This document shows positions 16,375 through 25,180 of a stretch of 37,287 nucleotides of DNA, piece after piece. The number at the start of each line of letters is the position of its first letter. The stretch's first letter is position 1. The stretch lies in contig NZ_JAMXFD010000009.1 of NCBI RefSeq assembly GCF_025370875.1, positions 205,344-242,630 on the forward strand, written 5' to 3'. The stretch is from Laspinema palackyanum D2c. GTDB taxonomy: Bacteria > Cyanobacteriota > Cyanobacteriia > Cyanobacteriales > Laspinemataceae. The position numbers and the translations under genes were made by a program. The notes beneath the pieces were generated by a model that did no database searches, had not been told where the DNA came from, and saw only the letters and a program-made list of their open reading frames with translations.

Positions 16375-17877
16375 TCAATCCACCCAATTTTTAGCCCGAC
16401 TTACCGCCTTTTGCCATTGAGCAAAATGAGGTGCTGCGGTAACTTTTCCCTCTCCAGGTTCAAAGCATCGATCCAGGGTGCGAGTTTGAACCAGAGTGTG
16501 ATAATCGGTCCAGAAACCCACCGCTAAACCGGCAGCAAAGGCGGCACCTTGAGCGGTAGCATCAAGAATTGTAGGACGTTCCAGGGGAATGTTCAGCACA
16601 TCCGCTTGAAATTGCATCAGAAAATCATTTTCGCAAGCGCCGCCATCGACTTTTAAGCGTTGTACGGGGGTATCACTATCTTGATTGATGGCATCAACAA
16701 CTTCTTTGACTTGATAGGCGACTGCCTCTAAAACAGCGCGAACTAGATGGGCACGGGTTACGCCAGCGGTGAGCCCCAAAAATGCCCCCCTGGCACTCAT
16801 ATCCCAATGGGGTGCACCGAGTCCACTCAAAGCGGGGACGAAATAGGCCCCATTAGTATCGGGAACGGAACGGGCGATCGCCTCGGTTTCTCCTGCGGAA
16901 TGAATCAAGTTTAATCCATCTCGCAACCACTGCACAGCACGTCCTGTTGTAAACATTGCTCCTTCTAAGGCATAATTCACCTGATTGCCATCAGTCCAAG
17001 CCACAGTCGAAAGAAGTTGATGATGGGAACGGACTAATTCCTGACCCGTTTGAGCAATTAAAAAACAGCCGGTCCCATAAGTACATTTTACCAGTCCCGG
17101 GCGATCGCATCCGTGGGCGAATAATGCCGCCTGCTGATCTCCTAAAATCGCCATAATCGGGACTGAAAACCCCAGGATATCCGGATCCGTTTCTCCAAAA
17201 TAGCCGAAACTGTCGCGAATTTCTGGCATGATTTCCTGGGGAATTCCGAATAAATTTAAGAGAGTTTGGTCCCAATTTAAGGTTTCCAAATTCATCAACA
17301 GGGTGCGACTGGCATTGCTGCGATCGGTGGCGTGAACCTTGGACCCGGTTAGTTTCCAAAGTATCCAACTATCGATGGTTCCAGCGAGAATATTTTTGGG
17401 ATTAATATCGGGGCGATTGTCCTTGACCCATTGTAATAACCAGGCCAGTTTAGTGGCCGAAAAATAGGCATCTAAAACTAATCCCGTGCGATTTTGAATT
17501 TCAGAAGCATGACCCTTTTCCGTCAACTCTCGACAGAGGGGTGCAGTCCGGCGATCGAGCCAGACAATGGCCGGATGCAAGGGTTCTCCGGTAGTTTTAT
17601 CCCACAGCAAACAGGTTTCACGCTGGACGGTGAGACCGATCGCCGCAATTTCAGAGCCAGAAATTCCCCGGTTTTGCAAGACCTTTTGAATGCAATGGTA
17701 GGTATCCTCCCAGATGGCGACTGGATCATGTTCTACCCAACCGGGCTGAGGATATAATTGATTCAATTCTTGATAAGATTGGGAAATTAATTGACCCTCG
17801 TGATTAAACAAAATCGCCCGATTGCCCGTTGTCCCGAGGTCGAGTCCTAAAACTATATTTGAGTTAGATTGTTTCAT
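16375..17877 (-). CDS. glpK: Glycerol kinase
   Basis: The 500-residue FGGY-family enzyme phosphorylates glycerol to sn-glycerol-3-phosphate for lipid synthesis or catabolism. Visible motifs are the N-terminal phosphate loop LDLGTTGNRAI, glycerol-site segments QRET, AIVWLDRRT and DAYFSATK, the catalytic loop LGDQQAALF, YGTGCF, and the FGGY-type VDGGACENDFLMQ. The usual DQGTT near the start is DLGTT here. The glycerol contacts otherwise look intact, so glycerol rather than another sugar alcohol is the likely substrate. No glpF or glpD is adjacent. It is divergent from the sensor kinase operon, with about 500 bases between starts. Confidence 0.92.
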   Translation of the reverse strand: MKQSNSNIVLGLDLGTTGNRAILFNHEGQLISQSYQELNQLYPQPGWVEHDPVAIWEDTYHCIQKVLQNRGISGSEIAAIGLTVQRETCLLWDKTTGEPLHPAIVWLDRRTAPLCRELTEKGHASEIQNRTGLVLDAYFSATKLAWLLQWVKDNRPDINPKNILAGTIDSWILWKLTGSKVHATDRSNASRTLLMNLETLNWDQTLLNLFGIPQEIMPEIRDSFGYFGETDPDILGFSVPIMAILGDQQAALFAHGCDRPGLVKCTYGTGCFLIAQTGQELVRSHHQLLSTVAWTDGNQVNYALEGAMFTTGRAVQWLRDGLNLIHSAGETEAIARSVPDTNGAYFVPALSGLGAPHWDMSARGAFLGLTAGVTRAHLVRAVLEAVAYQVKEVVDAINQDSDTPVQRLKVDGGACENDFLMQFQADVLNIPLERPTILDATAQGAAFAAGLAVGFWTDYHTLVQTRTLDRCFEPGEGKVTAAPHFAQWQKAVSRAKNWVD

Positions 17878-18075
17878 AAACTATAGGGATTAAATGAATG
17901 AAACTGAGAACTTTCGGGTCAGGGTGGTGCATTTACAGGTCAGATTTGAGTGCTGAATTGTTATAGATTAGGGACTCCCCTATCCCTGAAAGTTTCTCCC
18001 AATCAACCCGTGACCGTGAATTCTCAGAAAACTGCCTCTGATGATTACTTGTCGTCCCCATTAAGGATTAAATAT

Positions 18076-18104
18076 TTGCAATCTTACAATGAGTGGAATA
18101 TAAT
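18076..18104 (+). promoter_or_regulatory. Sigma70-type promoter of the HK-NADAR operon
   Basis: TTGCAA (18076-18081) and a perfect TATAAT (18099-18104) are separated by exactly 17 bases. Transcription would start near 18111 and give a leader of about 270 bases before the first gene. Confidence 0.65.
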
Positions 18105-18250
18105 TGTTCAAGGCAAACAGATTAATTTCTTTAAATATCCAGTCCTGGGGCCCTCAATGTCAAGCCCCTAAAGGCTCCGTATTATCACGGAAAATTATAA
18201 AACCCTTGGAAATTTTATAAAAATTTAATAAAGTAGAGAAATGCTCACGC

Positions 18251-18296
18251 ACCCGCAACCCGATTCATAACGTTTTTTGTGAAGACGGATGCGGGT
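18251..18296 (+). promoter_or_regulatory. Leader hairpin with internal T6 run
   Basis: ACCCGCA (18251-18257) pairs with TGCGGGT (18290-18296), enclosing a loop that contains TTTTTT (18273-18278). It is the first of three inverted repeats in the predicted leader. Confidence 0.4.
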
Positions 18297-18316
18297 TCCA
18301 TTCTGGAATTAAAGCC

Positions 18317-18350
18317 AGTTGGCAGTTGAACGCTGCCTAACTCAGCGTTC
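18317..18350 (+). promoter_or_regulatory. Two mutually exclusive leader hairpins
   Basis: Hairpin A pairs AGTTGGCAG (18317-18325) with CTGCC-T-AACT (18333-18342, one bulge). Hairpin B pairs GAACGCTG (18328-18335) with CAGCGTTC (18343-18350), eight perfect pairs. They share bases 18328-18342, so only one can form at a time. B ends ten bases before the GGAGGA ribosome site. This is the form of a riboregulator or attenuator-like switch. Confidence 0.5.
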
Positions 18351-18382
18351 ACATCGTTGAGGAGGAACCCTTCATCACCGTT

Positions 18383-20317
18383 ATGTTGGGATCCTTACAC
18401 CGAGAAAACATCGCTTGTCCTCAGACAAGAGTATCTTTATCAGCAAGGGAAGCCCCATCTATGCAGCTTCAAGAGCCTTACAAGGTCCTAGAGACCCGAC
18501 AACCGAGAGGGATTGTGGATCCATCACAGATTGGCAATGTGGGGAACTCCTCTCCAAATCTCCTCGATCAGCTCAAAACCAACATTCGCCGCTTAAGTAT
18601 TAAGCAAAAAATCGGCTATGGTTATGGACTGACAATTTCGATCGCGTTATTGGGAACGGGTCTGGGGTTAGTAGTAGGCGATCGCTATCACAACAAAGCC
18701 AAACAACAACTGGTTCATGCCTACGAGCAACAGCGGATCCTCACCCGTTTGCAATATGAGGTGGTCACCGCGCGATCGCATCAACAAGGTTTAGTTTCCA
18801 GTGCGGATCAGTCCCTCTGGAGTGAATCTAAAAGCCGTAGCTTTCTGACCCAAAATCAGAAAGTTGAAAATCTGTTAAACGATTTGCAAGAGGTGGTTAA
18901 AACCAATGAGAAGAGTTTAGTCACCGTTGATGAATCCCAAATGCAAAAATTATGGGAGATTCAAGAAGTTGCTGAAAAATCTTCTCAAGACTTGCTGCAG
19001 TTACAGACCTTGAATCCTAATTTGGGCTCCGATTTAGTGACTCGTCTCACTGATTCGGAAAGAGAGAGAGTTTTGGCGCAAATTTCCCAAGTGGAATTTG
19101 CATTAGAAACCCTTTATCAGGAGTTAGACCAGACCTTAGATGCAGCCCAGGCCCAAGAGAATGCGGCCAAAGAGACCTTTACTAAAGCCGAATCCCTGCG
19201 ATGGAAAATTGCAGTATTCAGCATGATTTTATCCGTGGCGATCGCCGCGATGTTAGCCTCATACACCAGTCGGGCGATCGCCCGTCCCATTGAATGGGTC
19301 ACCCAAGTTGCCCTCCGCACCACTGAACAATCCAATTATAGACTCCGCGCCCCCATCCTCACCGAAGATGAAGCCGGTTTACTCGCCACCTCCCTGAATC
19401 AACTGATTAGTCGAGTTGAGGAACAACTCCAGGAAATTCAGCAAGCTCAAACCCAGCTCATTCAGACCGAAAAAATGTCCAGTCTGGGACAATTAGTCGC
19501 TGGAATTGCCCACGAAATCAATAATCCCATCAACTTTATCACCGGCAATATCGAGCATAGCAATCATTACATCCAAGACATCCTCGAAATCGTCAAACTG
19601 TATCAAAAAGAGCATCCCAATCCGTCCCCGGAACTACAGGAACTCATTGAAGATGTAGATTTAGAATTCGTCATCGCCGACTTGACCAAAATGCTCTCCT
19701 CCATGAGCATGGGTTCCGAGCGAATACGGCAGATTGTCCTTTCTCTGCGTAACTTTTCGCGCCTGGACGAATCCGAGAAAAAACGAGTCGATATTCACGA
19801 AGGAATCGACAGTACCCTGTTGCTCTGTAACCATCGCCTGCACCCGAACATTGAAGTGATTACCCGCTATGATGAATTGCAGCCAATCGAGTGTTATCCG
19901 GCGCAACTCAACCAAGTGTTTATGCACTTGATTTCCAATGCGATCGATGCCTTAGAAAGCAAACCGAATAAAGAGTCAAACCCCCTTCAGTCCCATCGCC
20001 AAATCGTCATTCAAACCCAGAAGCTCAATGAAAGAACCATCCAGGTTAAAATCTCGGATAATGGTCTGGGAATGGATGAGGCAATCCGCAGCAAAATATT
20101 CGACCCATTTTACACGACGAAACCCCCCGGAAAAGGGACAGGTTTGGGATTATCGATTGTTTACCGCGTGGTAGAAAAACATGGAGGTAAAATCGAGGTG
20201 AGTTCACAACCCGGAAGAGGGACAGAATTTAGGATCACCCTTCCCATTGAACCGTTAGCTCATCCTTTATCCATCCAGCACACTCGACCTTCTGTCCCCA
20301 TTTTAAATGCCATCTAA
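18383..20317 (+). CDS. Membrane sensor histidine kinase with HAMP domain
   Basis: The 644-residue protein has about 75 N-terminal cytoplasmic residues, membrane segment 1 (78-99), a helical extracytoplasmic domain of about 170 residues, membrane segment 2 (274-294), a HAMP domain, a coiled coil rich in Gln/Glu, then the kinase core. The phospho-acceptor is H377 in AGIAHEINNP. The dimerisation domain is unusually long, with a PNPSPELQELIED insert, as in many cyanobacterial kinases. ATP-binding boxes read HLISNAIDA, DNGLGMD and GKGTGLGLSIVYR. It heads a tight operon: the next gene starts 11 bases before this one ends. GGAGGA lies 16 bases before the ATG, longer than ideal, so a different start is possible. 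No response regulator is adjacent. Confidence 0.92.
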   Translation: MLGSLHRENIACPQTRVSLSAREAPSMQLQEPYKVLETRQPRGIVDPSQIGNVGNSSPNLLDQLKTNIRRLSIKQKIGYGYGLTISIALLGTGLGLVVGDRYHNKAKQQLVHAYEQQRILTRLQYEVVTARSHQQGLVSSADQSLWSESKSRSFLTQNQKVENLLNDLQEVVKTNEKSLVTVDESQMQKLWEIQEVAEKSSQDLLQLQTLNPNLGSDLVTRLTDSERERVLAQISQVEFALETLYQELDQTLDAAQAQENAAKETFTKAESLRWKIAVFSMILSVAIAAMLASYTSRAIARPIEWVTQVALRTTEQSNYRLRAPILTEDEAGLLATSLNQLISRVEEQLQEIQQAQTQLIQTEKMSSLGQLVAGIAHEINNPINFITGNIEHSNHYIQDILEIVKLYQKEHPNPSPELQELIEDVDLEFVIADLTKMLSSMSMGSERIRQIVLSLRNFSRLDESEKKRVDIHEGIDSTLLLCNHRLHPNIEVITRYDELQPIECYPAQLNQVFMHLISNAIDALESKPNKESNPLQSHRQIVIQTQKLNERTIQVKISDNGLGMDEAIRSKIFDPFYTTKPPGKGTGLGLSIVYRVVEKHGGKIEVSSQPGRGTEFRITLPIEPLAHPLSIQHTRPSVPILNAI

Positions 20318-20990
20318 AGTCCAAAAAATGAGCGCCCTTCTGGGTAAATTTAGAACCCTAGGGCAGTCCAAACGAGAGAAAACCCAAGCTCAAATGTCGG
20401 AATTCTTGTCAAGTTTTTCCGACATCCATCAGAAATCCAGGCAGCGTCAGGTTGCTAATTTTAATCTATTTTCTCTCTTGCAACTGAGCAAAAACGAGAC
20501 AACCCAAACCACCGTGTTAGGGTGGCTGTTAGATGCTGAGGGTAGTCATGGGCAAGGTCCACTGTTTTTAGAACAGCTTGTCAAACTTTGTGGTGACTGT
20601 ATTCCTTCGGAGCATTTCAGCCAACCCTATCGCCTCCTTTCTTCAGCGATCGCACCCCAATTGCGCCTGGACCTGATTCTGTATCGACCCGGGGAATTTT
20701 TAGTGGCGATCGATAACAATATTTTGGACCGAGAAGGCATCCACCAAGCTGACCTAGAAATTATCGAGATGCGACGGTTAGGTTCAGCGCAACGCATCCC
20801 CAAAGAACGACAAATCGCCATCTTTTTAACCCCCGAAGGACGAGAACCCCTGAGTGGAGACCCATCCCATTGGCACTCGCTTTCCTATCCCCAACTCGCC
20901 GCAGCCTTTTCCCAAGTTGTACCGCAACTGAATGATCTAAAACTTAAACATATTTTGGTAGACTGGATCGAGGTGGTGTCAAGGGTATGA
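20307..20990 (+). CDS. PD-(D/E)XK-superfamily protein, probably catalytically dead
   Basis: The 227-residue protein resembles the PDDEXK_4-type family: NFNLFSLLQLSKNET near residues 51-65 with E64, then TVLGWLLDAEGSHGQGPLFL, then the core strands LRLDLIL (D122) and FLVAIDNNIL. In active relatives the last strand reads IENK; here it is I-D136-N-N138, so the glutamate is aspartate and the catalytic lysine is asparagine. The fold is inferred from the order of these segments. It starts inside the kinase gene (11-base overlap), suggesting translational coupling; a second ATG at 20328 would avoid the overlap. The unknown gene follows after three bases. A binding or regulatory role is more likely than DNA cutting. 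Confidence 0.65.
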   Translation: MPSKVQKMSALLGKFRTLGQSKREKTQAQMSEFLSSFSDIHQKSRQRQVANFNLFSLLQLSKNETTQTTVLGWLLDAEGSHGQGPLFLEQLVKLCGDCIPSEHFSQPYRLLSSAIAPQLRLDLILYRPGEFLVAIDNNILDREGIHQADLEIIEMRRLGSAQRIPKERQIAIFLTPEGREPLSGDPSHWHSLSYPQLAAAFSQVVPQLNDLKLKHILVDWIEVVSRV

Positions 20991-20993
20991 TTT

Positions 20994-21542
20994 ATGAAAA
21001 TTTTCTCAGACGAAAGTAAGTTATTAGCCAAAAATTGGGAAACCTATCAGGAACTTCTCAAAGCAGAACAAACCCTTAGAAGTGAACTCCAAAACTTTTT
21101 GGAATCTCTGGAAGCCGATTTAGCTAAAAATCCCTGGTGGCAAAATCAGTGGAATTTTATCGTTTATGAAGAGACAGAAATTTATATTTCTCAGGCAAAT
21201 TGGGTATCGGCTTATGATGAATATGTTATCTTAATTGGCTTAGAAGGATTGACCCCGGAGCGATTGTTTGGCATGGACAATCCGCCTCTGCTATATGTAA
21301 AATCTTCAGATTATAATTTGGGAGAAATGCTCATTGAAAAACTCAAAGAAGAAGAAAACTTAAAACAGGGAGACATTGATTATAGTTCCAGTCGCTATCT
21401 CGTCACCCACCCCTTAAAGGTGCTACCGAACGAAGTTGAAAAATTTGATAAAGTCGTTCGTCAACCTGCCCTGGATTTTTTAAGTTATTATGCAACTACC
21501 CTGGAAAAATATACTGACTTAATAGAAAAAGCCCTGAGTTAA
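20994..21542 (+). CDS. Unknown protein in HK-NADAR operon
   Basis: I do not recognise this 182-residue family. It is acidic (many Glu/Asp), with a predicted coiled or helical N-terminus (LLKAEQTLRSELQNFLESLEADLAK), a middle with several aromatic strands, and a helical C-terminus. No signal peptide, membrane segment or metal motif is present. AAGGG lies about eight bases before the ATG, inside the end of the previous gene, which stops three bases upstream. The spacing makes co-translation with the PD-(D/E)XK-like protein likely, so a physical partner of that protein is a reasonable guess. Confidence 0.75.
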   Translation: MKIFSDESKLLAKNWETYQELLKAEQTLRSELQNFLESLEADLAKNPWWQNQWNFIVYEETEIYISQANWVSAYDEYVILIGLEGLTPERLFGMDNPPLLYVKSSDYNLGEMLIEKLKEEENLKQGDIDYSSSRYLVTHPLKVLPNEVEKFDKVVRQPALDFLSYYATTLEKYTDLIEKALS

Positions 21543-21561
21543 AAGGGGCAGGAGATAGACG

Positions 21562-22008
21562 GTGACTCTATATTTTTATAGCCTCCGTAGTGAATACGGA
21601 TGTTTCTCCAACTTTTCCCGGCATGGCTTTGAGTTAGATGGGGTATGGTGGCCGACGAGCGAACATTATTTTCAAGCTCAAAAATTTGCGGGAACTCCCC
21701 ATGCCGAGCAGATCCGACAAGTTAACAGCCCTAGGGATGCCGCCAACATGGGACGCGATCGCAAACGTCCCCTACGTCCGGATTGGGAAACGGTCAAAGA
21801 TGAAATCATGCGCCGTGCGGTCCTCAAAAAATTCCAGACTCATGACGACATTCGGGAGATTTTGCTCGGAACTGGAGAGGAGGAACTCGTAGAAAATGCC
21901 CCTCATGATTATTATTGGGGATGCGGTAAAGATGGCAGTGGTCAGAATAAATTGGGCCAGATTTTAATGGAGGTGCGAGCAATTCTGCGTCAGGAACCCT
22001 CAATTTAA
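21562..22008 (+). CDS. NADAR (YbiA-like) family protein
   Basis: The 148-residue protein matches the NADAR/YbiA (DUF1768) fold from end to end: YGCFSNFSRHGFELDG, WWPTSEHYFQAQKF, then ANMGRD and HDYYWGCGKDGSGQNKLGQ. Known members cleave N-glycosidic bonds in riboflavin intermediates (YbiA) or remove ADP-ribose from guanine in DarT-type toxin systems. No DarT-like gene is adjacent. The start is GTG at 21562 with GGAG seven bases upstream. It is the fourth gene of the sensor kinase operon, 19 bases after the unknown gene, and a terminator overlaps its stop. It could be a stand-alone housekeeping hydrolase or the enzymatic arm of this operon. Confidence 0.88.
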   Translation: MTLYFYSLRSEYGCFSNFSRHGFELDGVWWPTSEHYFQAQKFAGTPHAEQIRQVNSPRDAANMGRDRKRPLRPDWETVKDEIMRRAVLKKFQTHDDIREILLGTGEEELVENAPHDYYWGCGKDGSGQNKLGQILMEVRAILRQEPSI

Positions 22009-22029
22009 TCAATTTAATCGAGGGTTTTT
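21996..22029 (+). terminator. Intrinsic terminator of the HK-NADAR operon
   Basis: ACCCTC (21996-22001) pairs with GAGGGT (22020-22025), followed by TTTTT. The NADAR stop codon lies in the loop, so the left arm is coding sequence. Confidence 0.6.
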
Positions 22030-22066
22030 ACGCTTAAGGTGATTTGCCCTTCTCGTAACTCCACCT

Positions 22067-22102
22067 CCGGTCCCCTCCCCAAGACACAGGGGAGGGGACC
22101 GG
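22067..22102. repeat. Perfect 14-pair GC-rich palindrome
   Basis: CCGGTCCCCTCCCC and GGGGAGGGGACCGG flank an eight-base loop. The GGGGAGGGGACCGGAA part is shared with the repeats at 4892 and 4984, so it belongs to the same family. It lies between the operon terminator and the nblS gene. Confidence 0.7.
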
Positions 22103-22233
22103 AATTTCCCTAAATGAGAGGCAAATCCCCCTGAACATAAAAAACCACGCCCCATTCTCCCAAAACTTCACAACGTGGCACAATAGAAATAGACTCATCT
22201 CTCATCCTTGCCTTCCACCGGATAGAAAGAACC

Positions 22234-24459
22234 TTGCTGGCTCTCCTAAACAAAATCCGAGAAATTATTGCCCGTTGGTGGTCCGAATTCACCCTCCAGA
22301 CCCGACTGATGGCAGCCGCCACCCTGGTTGTGTCCCTCATTATGAGTGGACTCACCTTTTGGGCTGTCAATACCATTCAGCAGGATGCCCGAATCAATGA
22401 CACCCGCTTCGGTCGAGATTTGGGACTGCTGCTGGCAGCCAATGTCGCCCCATTAATTGCTGAAGATAATCGCACAGAAGTGGCCCGCTTTTCTCATCGG
22501 TTCTATAGCAGCACCACCAGCGTGCGCTATATGCTCTATGCGGATAAGGAGGGCCAAATCTTCCTGGGAATTCCCTTTTCGGAGTCCGAGGTCCAAAATT
22601 CCCTAACCCTGCAACGGAGGATTCAACTTCCCGAGGGCTTTGCCACTACTTATGACTTGCCAATGGTCCGGCAGCATCGTACCCCGGATGGCACCGTCAC
22701 CGATGTATTTGTCCCCCTGGCGCACGAAAAAGAATATTTGGGTGTCTTGGCGATCGGGATCAACCCCAATCCCACCGTAGTCACCTCCTCCAACCTCACC
22801 CGGGATGTCACCATTGCGGTATTTATCTCCATCTGGGTGATGGTCATTTTAGGGGCCGTCTTTAATGCCTTGACCATTACCAAACCGATTAAAGAATTGC
22901 TGGTTGGGGTGAAAAACATTGCTACAGGAAACTTCAAGCAGCGGATAGACTTGCCTTTGCAAGGCGAACTCGGGGAATTAATTTGCAGCTTTAATGAAAT
23001 GGCCGAACGGCTAGAACGGTATGAGGAGCAGAACATTGAAGAACTCACTGCCGAAAAAGCCAAATTAGAAACCCTAGTTTCTACCATCGCTGATGGAGCC
23101 GTCTTATTAGACACTTCCTTACAGGTAATTTTAGTCAACCCCACCGCAAGGCGGATTTTCGGCTGGGAAGGCAAAAACCTGATTTCTCAAAATATCCTGG
23201 ATTTGCTCCCTGCCGCAGTCAGTGCCGAGTTGACTCAACCCCTGTATGAAATGGCCGCAGGGGATTCCCTGCGAGAGCTTTCCTCCTCCAATGACGGGGA
23301 TGGGGATATTTCCGGCAACGGCTATGCGTCCCGAGAGAGTGGGGAGTTTCGCCTCACCCTGAGCGAACCGACAAAACGCACCGTGCGAATTTTACTGAGT
23401 ACCGTGCTGCTGCATAAAGCCCCCGGAGGCGATCCCCTCTGCAAGAGTTGCATCTACCATCACGAAGATACCTGTACCGCCCCGGAACGGCCCTACGCCA
23501 CGGAATGCACCCTCTATCATGATGACTCGGTTTCCTCGGCGACGGCGCAATATCGCGAGAGTCTCAAAGGCATTGCCATGACGGTTCAAGATATTACCCG
23601 AGAGGTCAAGCTGAATGAAGCCAAGAGTCAGTTTATTAGCAATGTCTCCCATGAACTGAGAACGCCGTTATTTAATATCAAGTCCTTTATCGAAACCCTC
23701 CATGAATATGGGGAAGAACTCACCCAGGAGGAGCGTCAGGAATTTTTAGAAACCGCCAACCGGGAAACCGATCGCCTCACCCGCTTGGTTAACGATGTCC
23801 TGGATCTCTCCCGTCTGGAATCCAGCCGGACCTATCAGTTTGAAGCGGTAGAAATTGCTCAACCTGTGGAGCAAACCCTGCGAACCTATCAGCTCAATGC
23901 CAAAGATAAAAATATTGACCTGATTCAAGAAGTTGATCCCGAATTGCCCGCAGTGGTGGCTAACTATGATTTGCTCCTACAAGTGTTTGCCAATTTGGTG
24001 GGAAATGCCCTGAAGTTCACCGAACCCGGGGGAAGAATTGCGATTCGCGCCTATTTGTTGGAAACCGAAGAGGATAATTCCTGGCGCTCTAATCCACAAT
24101 GTCCTCTCCCGAACCAGCAGCAGAAACCCAATGTGCCGATGGTGCGGATTGAAGTGGGGGATACGGGGATCGGGATTGCTGCAGAAGACCAAGTAGCGAT
24201 TTTCGATCGCTTCTTCCGGGTGGAAAACCGAGTTCATACCTTGGAAGGGACAGGGTTAGGTCTTTCCATTGTCCGCAATATTATGGAAAAACATCATGCC
24301 CAAATGCATTTAGTCAGTGAAGTGGGGGTGGGAACCACGTTCTGGTTCGATTTGGCGGTGTACCCGGAAAAAAAGCATCGGGTGGAAAAGACCCAGGACC
24401 AGGCGATCGCCCCGGCTTTGGATGAGGCCCCTAATTCCCATCCCACCCCGGTGAGTTAA
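22234..24459 (+). CDS. nblS: NblS/Hik33-type sensor histidine kinase
   Basis: The 741-residue membrane kinase has the NblS/Hik33 plan: membrane segment 1 (about 26-46), a periplasmic loop, membrane segment 2 (about 193-215), HAMP, coiled coil, PAS (from about 283), H473 in NVSHELRTPLF, and ATP boxes NALKFTEPG, DTGIGI and GTGLGLSIV. The conserved WWSEFTLQTRLMAAATL start lies before the first in-frame ATG, so the TTG at 22234 is taken as the start. NblS senses light, cold and nutrient stress in cyanobacteria and signals to OmpR-type regulators. A segment between PAS and kinase core holds four cysteines (403, 406, 414, 425) that I do not associate with the classical proteins. An OmpR-type regulator follows 19 bases later. 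Confidence 0.88.
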   Translation: MLALLNKIREIIARWWSEFTLQTRLMAAATLVVSLIMSGLTFWAVNTIQQDARINDTRFGRDLGLLLAANVAPLIAEDNRTEVARFSHRFYSSTTSVRYMLYADKEGQIFLGIPFSESEVQNSLTLQRRIQLPEGFATTYDLPMVRQHRTPDGTVTDVFVPLAHEKEYLGVLAIGINPNPTVVTSSNLTRDVTIAVFISIWVMVILGAVFNALTITKPIKELLVGVKNIATGNFKQRIDLPLQGELGELICSFNEMAERLERYEEQNIEELTAEKAKLETLVSTIADGAVLLDTSLQVILVNPTARRIFGWEGKNLISQNILDLLPAAVSAELTQPLYEMAAGDSLRELSSSNDGDGDISGNGYASRESGEFRLTLSEPTKRTVRILLSTVLLHKAPGGDPLCKSCIYHHEDTCTAPERPYATECTLYHDDSVSSATAQYRESLKGIAMTVQDITREVKLNEAKSQFISNVSHELRTPLFNIKSFIETLHEYGEELTQEERQEFLETANRETDRLTRLVNDVLDLSRLESSRTYQFEAVEIAQPVEQTLRTYQLNAKDKNIDLIQEVDPELPAVVANYDLLLQVFANLVGNALKFTEPGGRIAIRAYLLETEEDNSWRSNPQCPLPNQQQKPNVPMVRIEVGDTGIGIAAEDQVAIFDRFFRVENRVHTLEGTGLGLSIVRNIMEKHHAQMHLVSEVGVGTTFWFDLAVYPEKKHRVEKTQDQAIAPALDEAPNSHPTPVS

Positions 24460-24478: not shown

Positions 24479-25180
24479 ATGAAAATTTTAATCGTTGAGG
24501 ATGAACCGGAAATTGCTCGAATTGTGGGGCGGGCATTAGAAGCCGAAGGCTTTCACTGCATCAATAGTCGCGATGGTTTGACTGCCCTGCGCGTCTTTGA
24601 AGAAGAACAGCCGGACTTAATTGTTTTAGACTTAATGTTACCCGGATTAGATGGGTTAGAAGTTTGTGCGCGCATCCGGCAAAAACCAGGACCTAAAGAC
24701 CCTTATATTTTAGTGCTCACCGCTAGAGGAGAGGAAATTGACCGGGTGATTGGCTTATCCACCGGGGCCGATGATTATATGGTCAAACCGTTTAGTCCTC
24801 GGGAATTGGTGGCGCGAGTCCGAGCTTTATTGCGCCGGAGTCTGCGACAAGGGAATCAGAGTTCTCAGGTTTACCAAACTGAACATTTCATGGTGGATCT
24901 GGACCGACGCATCGCCACCAGGCAAGTGGAAAATCGGGAGTTAGAAACCTTGGATTTAACTACTTTGGAGTTTAATCTGCTGTCAACGTTTTTAAGCTAT
25001 CCCGGACGGGTTTGGCAGCGATCGCAACTGATAGAAAAACTCTGGGGGGATGACTTTTTCGGGGATGAACGGGTTGTGGATACTCATGTCGCCCGCTTAC
25101 GAAAAAAAATCGAACTGGACCCGGCCAATCCATCTTTTATTAAAACCGTTATTGGTGTGGGCTATAAATTTGAAGATTAG
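24479..25180 (+). CDS. OmpR/PhoB-family response regulator
   Basis: The 233-residue protein has a receiver domain (1-120) with acidic pocket E7/D8, phospho-acceptor D51 in LIVLDLMLP, and the conserved Thr and Lys in VLTARG and YMVKPFSPREL. A winged-helix domain follows (about 135-230), with LTTLEFNLL, GRVWQRSQLI and RVVDTHVARLRKKI. GGAGG lies about 11 bases before the ATG. It is probably co-transcribed with the NblS-type kinase and is a candidate partner. It does not look like RpaB, whose N-terminus differs. Regulated genes cannot be told from the sequence. Confidence 0.93.
   Translation: MKILIVEDEPEIARIVGRALEAEGFHCINSRDGLTALRVFEEEQPDLIVLDLMLPGLDGLEVCARIRQKPGPKDPYILVLTARGEEIDRVIGLSTGADDYMVKPFSPRELVARVRALLRRSLRQGNQSSQVYQTEHFMVDLDRRIATRQVENRELETLDLTTLEFNLLSTFLSYPGRVWQRSQLIEKLWGDDFFGDERVVDTHVARLRKKIELDPANPSFIKTVIGVGYKFED

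Follow-up and report, generated by a model that had tools for sequence, protein, structure and literature searches.

Four open reading frames (ORFs) lie on the forward strand at 18383-20317, 20307-20990, 20994-21542 and 21562-22008 of a 37,287-nucleotide stretch of the genome of Laspinema palackyanum D2c (contig NZ_JAMXFD010000009.1; hereafter the window), spaced, from 5' to 3', by an 11-base overlap and by gaps of three and 19 bases. They encode an orphan membrane histidine kinase, a 227-residue protein of the nuclease-fold family PDDEXK_4 with a degenerate active site, an acidic protein of 182 residues and a YbiA-family NADAR protein. A sequence-only reading had described them as a tight one-strand set made of a membrane kinase without a response regulator, a "lysine-less" PD-(D/E)XK protein, an acidic protein of unknown type and a NADAR protein, and both the arrangement and these descriptions stood up to closer analysis. 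Of the eight genomes that represent the genus, that of the window included, seven keep the order of the four genes and one (G001) is without the genes. The kinase gene and the two middle genes are in addition found together in another genus, and constitute a conserved unit in all eight genomes that carry the middle pair.

The kinase probably starts at the ATG at 18461, giving a protein of 618 residues that ends at 20317, rather than at 18383 as the earlier reader had it. In the related genome G008 the kinase frame (a match that contains one in-frame TGA) has its first start codon at the equivalent MQL residues, and similarity with the kinase of G009, the carrier from the other genus, begins at the same residues, though the frame there is open for 48 residues further upstream; these homologues favour the later start over 18383. 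Among Pfam domains the protein matches HATPase_c (5.5e-27), together with HAMP (3.8e-5) and HisKA (2.9e-4), the latter two just under the curated cut-offs. The H, N, G1, F and G2 boxes are intact, two transmembrane-like segments are present, and no response regulator lies beside the kinase within 18383-22008. The nearest regulator gene downstream (24479-25180) follows the gene HK2; HK2 and this regulator were considered as part of the module and rejected, as in G009 they lie elsewhere, without it. In a tree of 18 kinases, the G009 kinase that adjoins the middle pair groups as sister to those of the genus (99/95), and the next to join is the G008 kinase that adjoins a NADAR gene (99/99), a topology by which the kinases of the genus, G009 and G008 loci are orthologous. 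Directly upstream of the module kinase, G009 (L023 11112-13028) and G008 (L073 8091-10163) have a further kinase from the same group, at the place where the genus of the window has glpK.

The 227-residue protein (20307-20990) passes the curated cut-off of PDDEXK_4 (PF14281; 31.6 bits vs. 22.3). Its best matches include the PADLOC profiles PDC-S26, the best of which (1.4e-18) aligns residues 24-226 with profile positions 5-207 of 397 and hence ends at about the middle of the profile instead of covering its full length. Long relatives were first taken as proteins of 330-460 residues (25 of 36 matches, the window's own gene being among the 36 and shorter or longer ones dropped), and the set was later widened to 40 rows, of which 34 are distinct. 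All 34 keep the aspartate, the glutamate and the lysine of the motif D...E-x-K, whereas the window protein reads D...IDNN, with D122, D136 and N138 in the active-site columns, and the G009 protein has G, E and N in the same columns. The lysine is thus an asparagine in each of the eight copies, across both genera, the glutamate has become aspartate in seven of the eight, and the first aspartate has become glycine in one (G009). On the strength of these alignments, the protein is a PDDEXK_4 member by descent whose motif has degenerated, and nuclease activity is unlikely in the window species. Searches of solved structures with the two middle proteins and the long relatives returned chance-level matches only (best E 0.12). 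One long PDDEXK_4 protein is encoded on a Vibrio plasmid (L117 3968-5140) amid small cassette-like genes (GNAT, NUDIX, VOC, DUF3265), a setting that resembles an integron array.

The acidic protein (20994-21542; pI 4.5) has no match stronger than E 0.08 in Pfam, PADLOC, NCBIfam, PHROGs or solved structures, and none of its eight copies matched a PADLOC model at E≤10. In the window the two middle ORFs share one frame and are separated by TGA TTT, and the distance from start to start is 687 bases in all seven genus genomes that carry them. Recoding or readthrough of this in-frame TGA was considered and ruled out: the stop is TGA in six genus genomes and TAA in one (G006), while in G009 the two genes occupy different frames with a 16-base gap, and the stop between them is therefore real. 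An AAGGG stretch located 8 bases before the ATG of the 182-residue gene is likely its ribosome site.

Both middle genes are under purifying selection in the genus. The ratio of nonsynonymous to synonymous substitution rates (dN/dS) is 0.153 for the PDDEXK_4 gene, 0.080 for the 182-residue gene and 0.109 for the NADAR gene (seven genomes each; first 146 codons for NADAR), to be set beside 0.208 for the kinase, 0.053 for HK2 and 0.074 for glpK (six genomes each, leaving out G003 for the kinase on account of an indel, G005 for HK2, whose gene lies outside the G005 sequence used, and G006 for glpK). Given the values of 0.153 and 0.080 and the degenerate motif, the PDDEXK_4 protein is therefore to be regarded as a kept protein with a degenerate motif.

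The distribution of the pair is narrow. Among 59 relatives the 182-residue protein occurs in eight, namely the window genome, six of the seven other genomes of the genus and G009, and the short form of PDDEXK_4 was found in these same eight. Between G009 and the window, identity amounts to 35% for the PDDEXK_4 protein, 54% for the 182-residue protein and 49% for the kinase. A class-wide sample contained the 182-residue protein in 1 of 388 genomes, the window's own, and an order-wide profile search returned the same eight carriers out of 388 at E≤0.001; five more genomes gave weak matches (E 0.001-0.1), and the one of these that was looked at (L155) turned out to be an unrelated protein. When genome contigs were scanned, five loci were retrieved, all in Laspinema or Oscillatoria, with G005 and G009 not among them. 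The phage, plasmid and viral-contig records searched contained no match to the 182-residue protein, on which ground a mobile origin was discarded, and scans of viral contigs with PDDEXK_4 alignments yielded nothing useful.

Gene order at the loci outside the genus distinguishes what belongs to the unit from what accompanies it. In G009 two kinase genes are followed by those of PDDEXK_4 and the 182-residue protein, and NADAR is missing; in G008 two kinase genes are followed by NADAR, and the pair is missing. Further on, a SufU-like gene and one more similar gene occur at both loci (by eye, from ORF translations), and the flanks of the G009 locus differ from those of the window, with no glpK match at E≤1e-100 and HK2 elsewhere. 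The pair adjoins the orthologous kinase in eight of eight carriers in two genera, as the sequence-only reading had supposed in linking them, and the neighbourhoods gave no sign of middle genes standing mostly apart from the kinase. In G001, the genus genome without the genes, the leader aligns at 86% over window positions 18135-18410, after which the sequence changes and the contig ends, and a contig edge likewise cuts off the HK2 side; we read this as a gene set lost or interrupted, an assembly gap being possible. By eye, the leader of this genome (L138 1-137, C437) runs into sequence resembling the end of an IS200/IS605-type element.

The fourth gene (21562-22008, GTG start) encodes a protein of 148 residues that matches Pfam NADAR (6.3e-44) and, at 166.7 bits vs. 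a cut-off of 73.7, the NCBIfam model TIGR02464, which describes a riboflavin-intermediate N-glycosidase of the YbiA type; its nearest solved chain is Escherichia coli YbiA (2b3w, 2.9e-46). Residues E34, E111 and D116 align with E43, E125 and D130, named for the P. nicotianae NADAR (PMC11543638), chain 8bau_A having been taken as that protein since the numbering of all three residues is shifted by the same offset of 2. By these matches the gene codes for a YbiA-type NADAR, not a DarT-linked one, and the enzyme probably has an ordinary part in damage repair or metabolism. Of 14 genomes of the family, 12 carry a NADAR that shares at least 70% identity with that of the window, and in eight of these it lies beside the kinase, whereas it is missing from the kinase-pair locus of G009; around the NADAR genes of G010, G012 and G013, neither kinase nor pair was found by tblastn in the 8-12 kb fetched, which for G010 included only 1.6 kb on one side. 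The gene comes and goes, and the view of NADAR as a core member of the set had to be abandoned. It is a loosely linked neighbour, often but not always travelling with the module, because in G008 the orthologous kinase adjoins NADAR without the pair. The window genome has two YbiA-type NADAR genes, about 52% identical (the second at G000:C42:20387-20824), and two NADAR matches occur in 12 of the 14 family genomes.

As for the signals that could delimit a transcript, the single good promoter proposed upstream of the kinase was found again by consensus scan on the forward strand at 18076-18104 (TTGCAA-17-TATAAT), and both hexamers are kept in six of seven genus genomes (by eye, in the alignment), G005 having TATAGT. 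Its quality is less distinctive than had been assumed, the match being 10/12 and the scanned stretch containing ten sites of that quality vs. 6.2 expected. Likewise, the terminator placed on the last stop codon does correspond, on the same strand, to a hairpin (AACCCTC/GAGGGTT) followed by a T run at 21995-22029, which overlaps the NADAR stop codon and folds strongly in the window (z -5.7). The hairpin is weak evidence of termination, because, by eye, two of the six other genomes (G002, G004) retain the stem with a single wobble or mismatch and four have lost it; the hairpin is also absent from the list of a terminator scan whose loop limit is 8. Upstream of the kinase, positions 18150-18242 are very highly conserved in the eight genus genomes, including the gene-less G001, and perhaps represent a regulatory element or second promoter. 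A hairpin at 18251-18296 in the leader of the kinase gene (z -3.5 for the window sequence; almost perfect in G004 when judged by eye) was tried as a conserved structure and rejected, pair counts over eight sequences not exceeding those of shuffles, and no Rfam element was found in 17700-22300 at E≤1.

Whether the 227- and 182-residue proteins are the N- and C-terminal halves of a split PDDEXK_4/PDC-S26 protein was weighed on lengths, co-occurrence and profile comparison. The two chains together (227 + 182 residues) compare with about 400 residues for one normal PDDEXK_4 protein, and beyond the boundary of homology the long form continues for a median of about 188 residues (40 proteins) vs. 182. 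The short PDDEXK_4 gene and the 182-residue gene occur together in eight of eight genomes, always side by side; of the ten other PDDEXK_4 matches among 388 genomes of the order, nine are in frames of 345-467 residues and one is broken, and no 182-residue match was reported in the genomes that hold them (each order-wide search covered 388 genomes, presumably the same ones). In one profile comparison, with the 40-protein set, the 182-residue alignment fell in the expected register at a score that none of 200 shuffles and none of 200 real decoys reached; 9 and 10 of these 200 controls were in register, and so were the window and G009 sequences, each taken alone.

Several results count against the split. 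The 40-protein set was picked post hoc, after smaller sets (3; 25 and 17; 5 proteins) had given nothing and after it had itself already given a P of 0.007. The best shuffle scored 23.5 vs. the observed 23.6, and once six long relatives were added the score fell to a level that 58 of 300 shuffles reached. When the set was resampled 12 times, three of the resulting alignments were in register (nine for the G009 sequence alone and four for the window sequence alone, compared with about 6% for shuffles), and an average of 11% of the shuffles equalled the score. Plain profile alignment gives no signal, equally good results coming from 72 of 100 decoys and 73 of 100 shuffles; hmmsearch of the 182-residue profile against the long proteins gave no significant match (best E 0.063); and the structure models are poor, with pLDDT of 47.8 for the 182-residue protein and 38.1 for the middle genes as one chain. 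Taken together, we give the split a little more than an even chance.

The explanation that we put forward, tentatively and at somewhat less than even confidence, is a three-gene module in which an orphan membrane histidine kinase is joined by a two-subunit, probably non-cutting PDDEXK_4 derivative, NADAR not being needed. A PDDEXK_4 protein of about 400 residues would have come apart into two chains, a nuclease-fold half of 227 residues, whose catalytic lysine is lost, and a partner of 182 residues. The two proteins would be made adjacently, probably by translational coupling, would bind one another, and may be kept for a binding or scaffolding role in the service of the kinase, with nucleic acid or protein as the ligand. 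The pair would either replace a response regulator as the kinase's output or modulate kinase activity. NADAR, as a YbiA-type N-glycosidase or ADP-ribosyl-guanosine hydrolase, is clustered with these genes in the genus and would be dispensable for the module. That the pair binds rather than cuts, works as two subunits and serves the kinase seems to us the most likely reading. The fuller version, in which the kinase's dedicated partner is a two-subunit pseudonuclease, derived from a split and inactivated PDDEXK_4 nuclease of defence type and recruited into signalling, looks rather unlikely. Further points speak against the proposed explanation. Other residues occur at the lysine position in some active PD-(D/E)XK enzymes (BamHI, BglII), and aspartate is allowed at the second acidic position, so that activity in the window species, though unlikely, is conceivable; kinase control of the pair is something that we infer.

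A competing explanation, which we regard as unlikely, is that the four genes are neighbours by chance of gene order and unrelated in function. The comings and goings of NADAR agree with it, and kinase matches at E≤1e-60 number at least 38-55 per genus genome (lower bounds, 88 candidates having been scored in each), so that a kinase is a common neighbour. The persistence of the kinase beside the pair in two genera, at 35-54% protein identity and between differing flanks, argues the other way. Quite improbable, in our judgement, is that the pair is still an active nuclease, its lysine relocated or replaced, which the kinase would trigger for defence or in response to stress. The best profile matches are the phage-defence candidates PDC-S26 of PADLOC, a long PDDEXK_4 protein occurs on Vibrio plasmid records (three of the five plasmid records with a match), and the window protein retains D122 and an acidic residue at 136; against this, the lysine is lost in both genera and in G009 the first aspartate as well, the 182-residue protein was found within one family only and in no phage, plasmid or viral contig, and presence in seven of eight genus genomes is more even than is generally expected of defence genes. 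The role in conflict or phage sensing that the sequence-only reading had raised does not fare better, in view of the degenerate motif, of the phage and plasmid records without a copy of the 182-residue protein and of family scans that listed no ADP-ribosyltransferase family; a defence function would follow from family resemblance, PDC-S26 being a candidate list, and is not supported. Very improbable is a toxin-antitoxin function, with the 182-residue protein as an ADP-ribosyltransferase-like toxin and YbiA as its antidote, after the manner of YarT-YbiA or DarT1-NADAR: YbiA beside a small protein of unknown family recalls the myxobacterial YbiA-YarT pair (PMC11125620) and a very divergent ADP-ribosyltransferase is conceivable, but no such family is listed for the three non-kinase proteins, or for the kinase among the best 25 of its 79 NCBIfam matches, the 182-residue gene of G009 has no NADAR next to it, and the myxobacterial YbiA is upstream of the toxin gene.

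The module of a kinase and a binding pair would, if it holds, be of interest on two accounts. Sensor kinases of this type are very numerous in these genomes, and for orphan ones the outputs are mostly unknown; a fixed degenerate-nuclease partner would represent a testable kinase output. It would also exemplify the conversion of a defence-type nuclease to a binding function. The small size of the module and its occurrence in named strains make direct testing feasible.

Compared with known systems, the NADAR protein shares with the YbiA riboflavin-intermediate N-glycosidase a TIGR02464 score far above the cut-off and the aligned catalytic glutamates and aspartate, and differs only in its gene neighbours. 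With YarT-YbiA and DarT1-NADAR the locus has in common a NADAR gene in a tight cluster (PMC11125620, PMC11543638), while here no ADP-ribosyltransferase was detected, the NADAR is of the YbiA type and it is missing from the G009 locus. Within a limited library, and with the words PDDEXK_4, PF14281 and PDC-S26, no literature naming the family was found, and among the matches listed on histidine kinases with anti-phage or nuclease effectors, in the text they offered, nothing described this gene set. With the stand-alone PDDEXK_4/PDC-S26 proteins the 227-residue protein agrees in passing the Pfam cut-off and in aligning with the first half of PDC-S26; it is unlike them in its half length, the loss of the catalytic lysine, the separate partner gene and the sensor kinase upstream, none having been recognised around eight loci of long PDDEXK_4 relatives (judged by eye on the 60 N-terminal residues of each ORF listed). 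The inactivated nuclease-like domain of RecC (PMC1185551) offers, by analogy, a precedent, being a PD-(D/E)XK fold that is no longer catalytic and has been put to a new use; RecC differs in being part of a helicase-nuclease.

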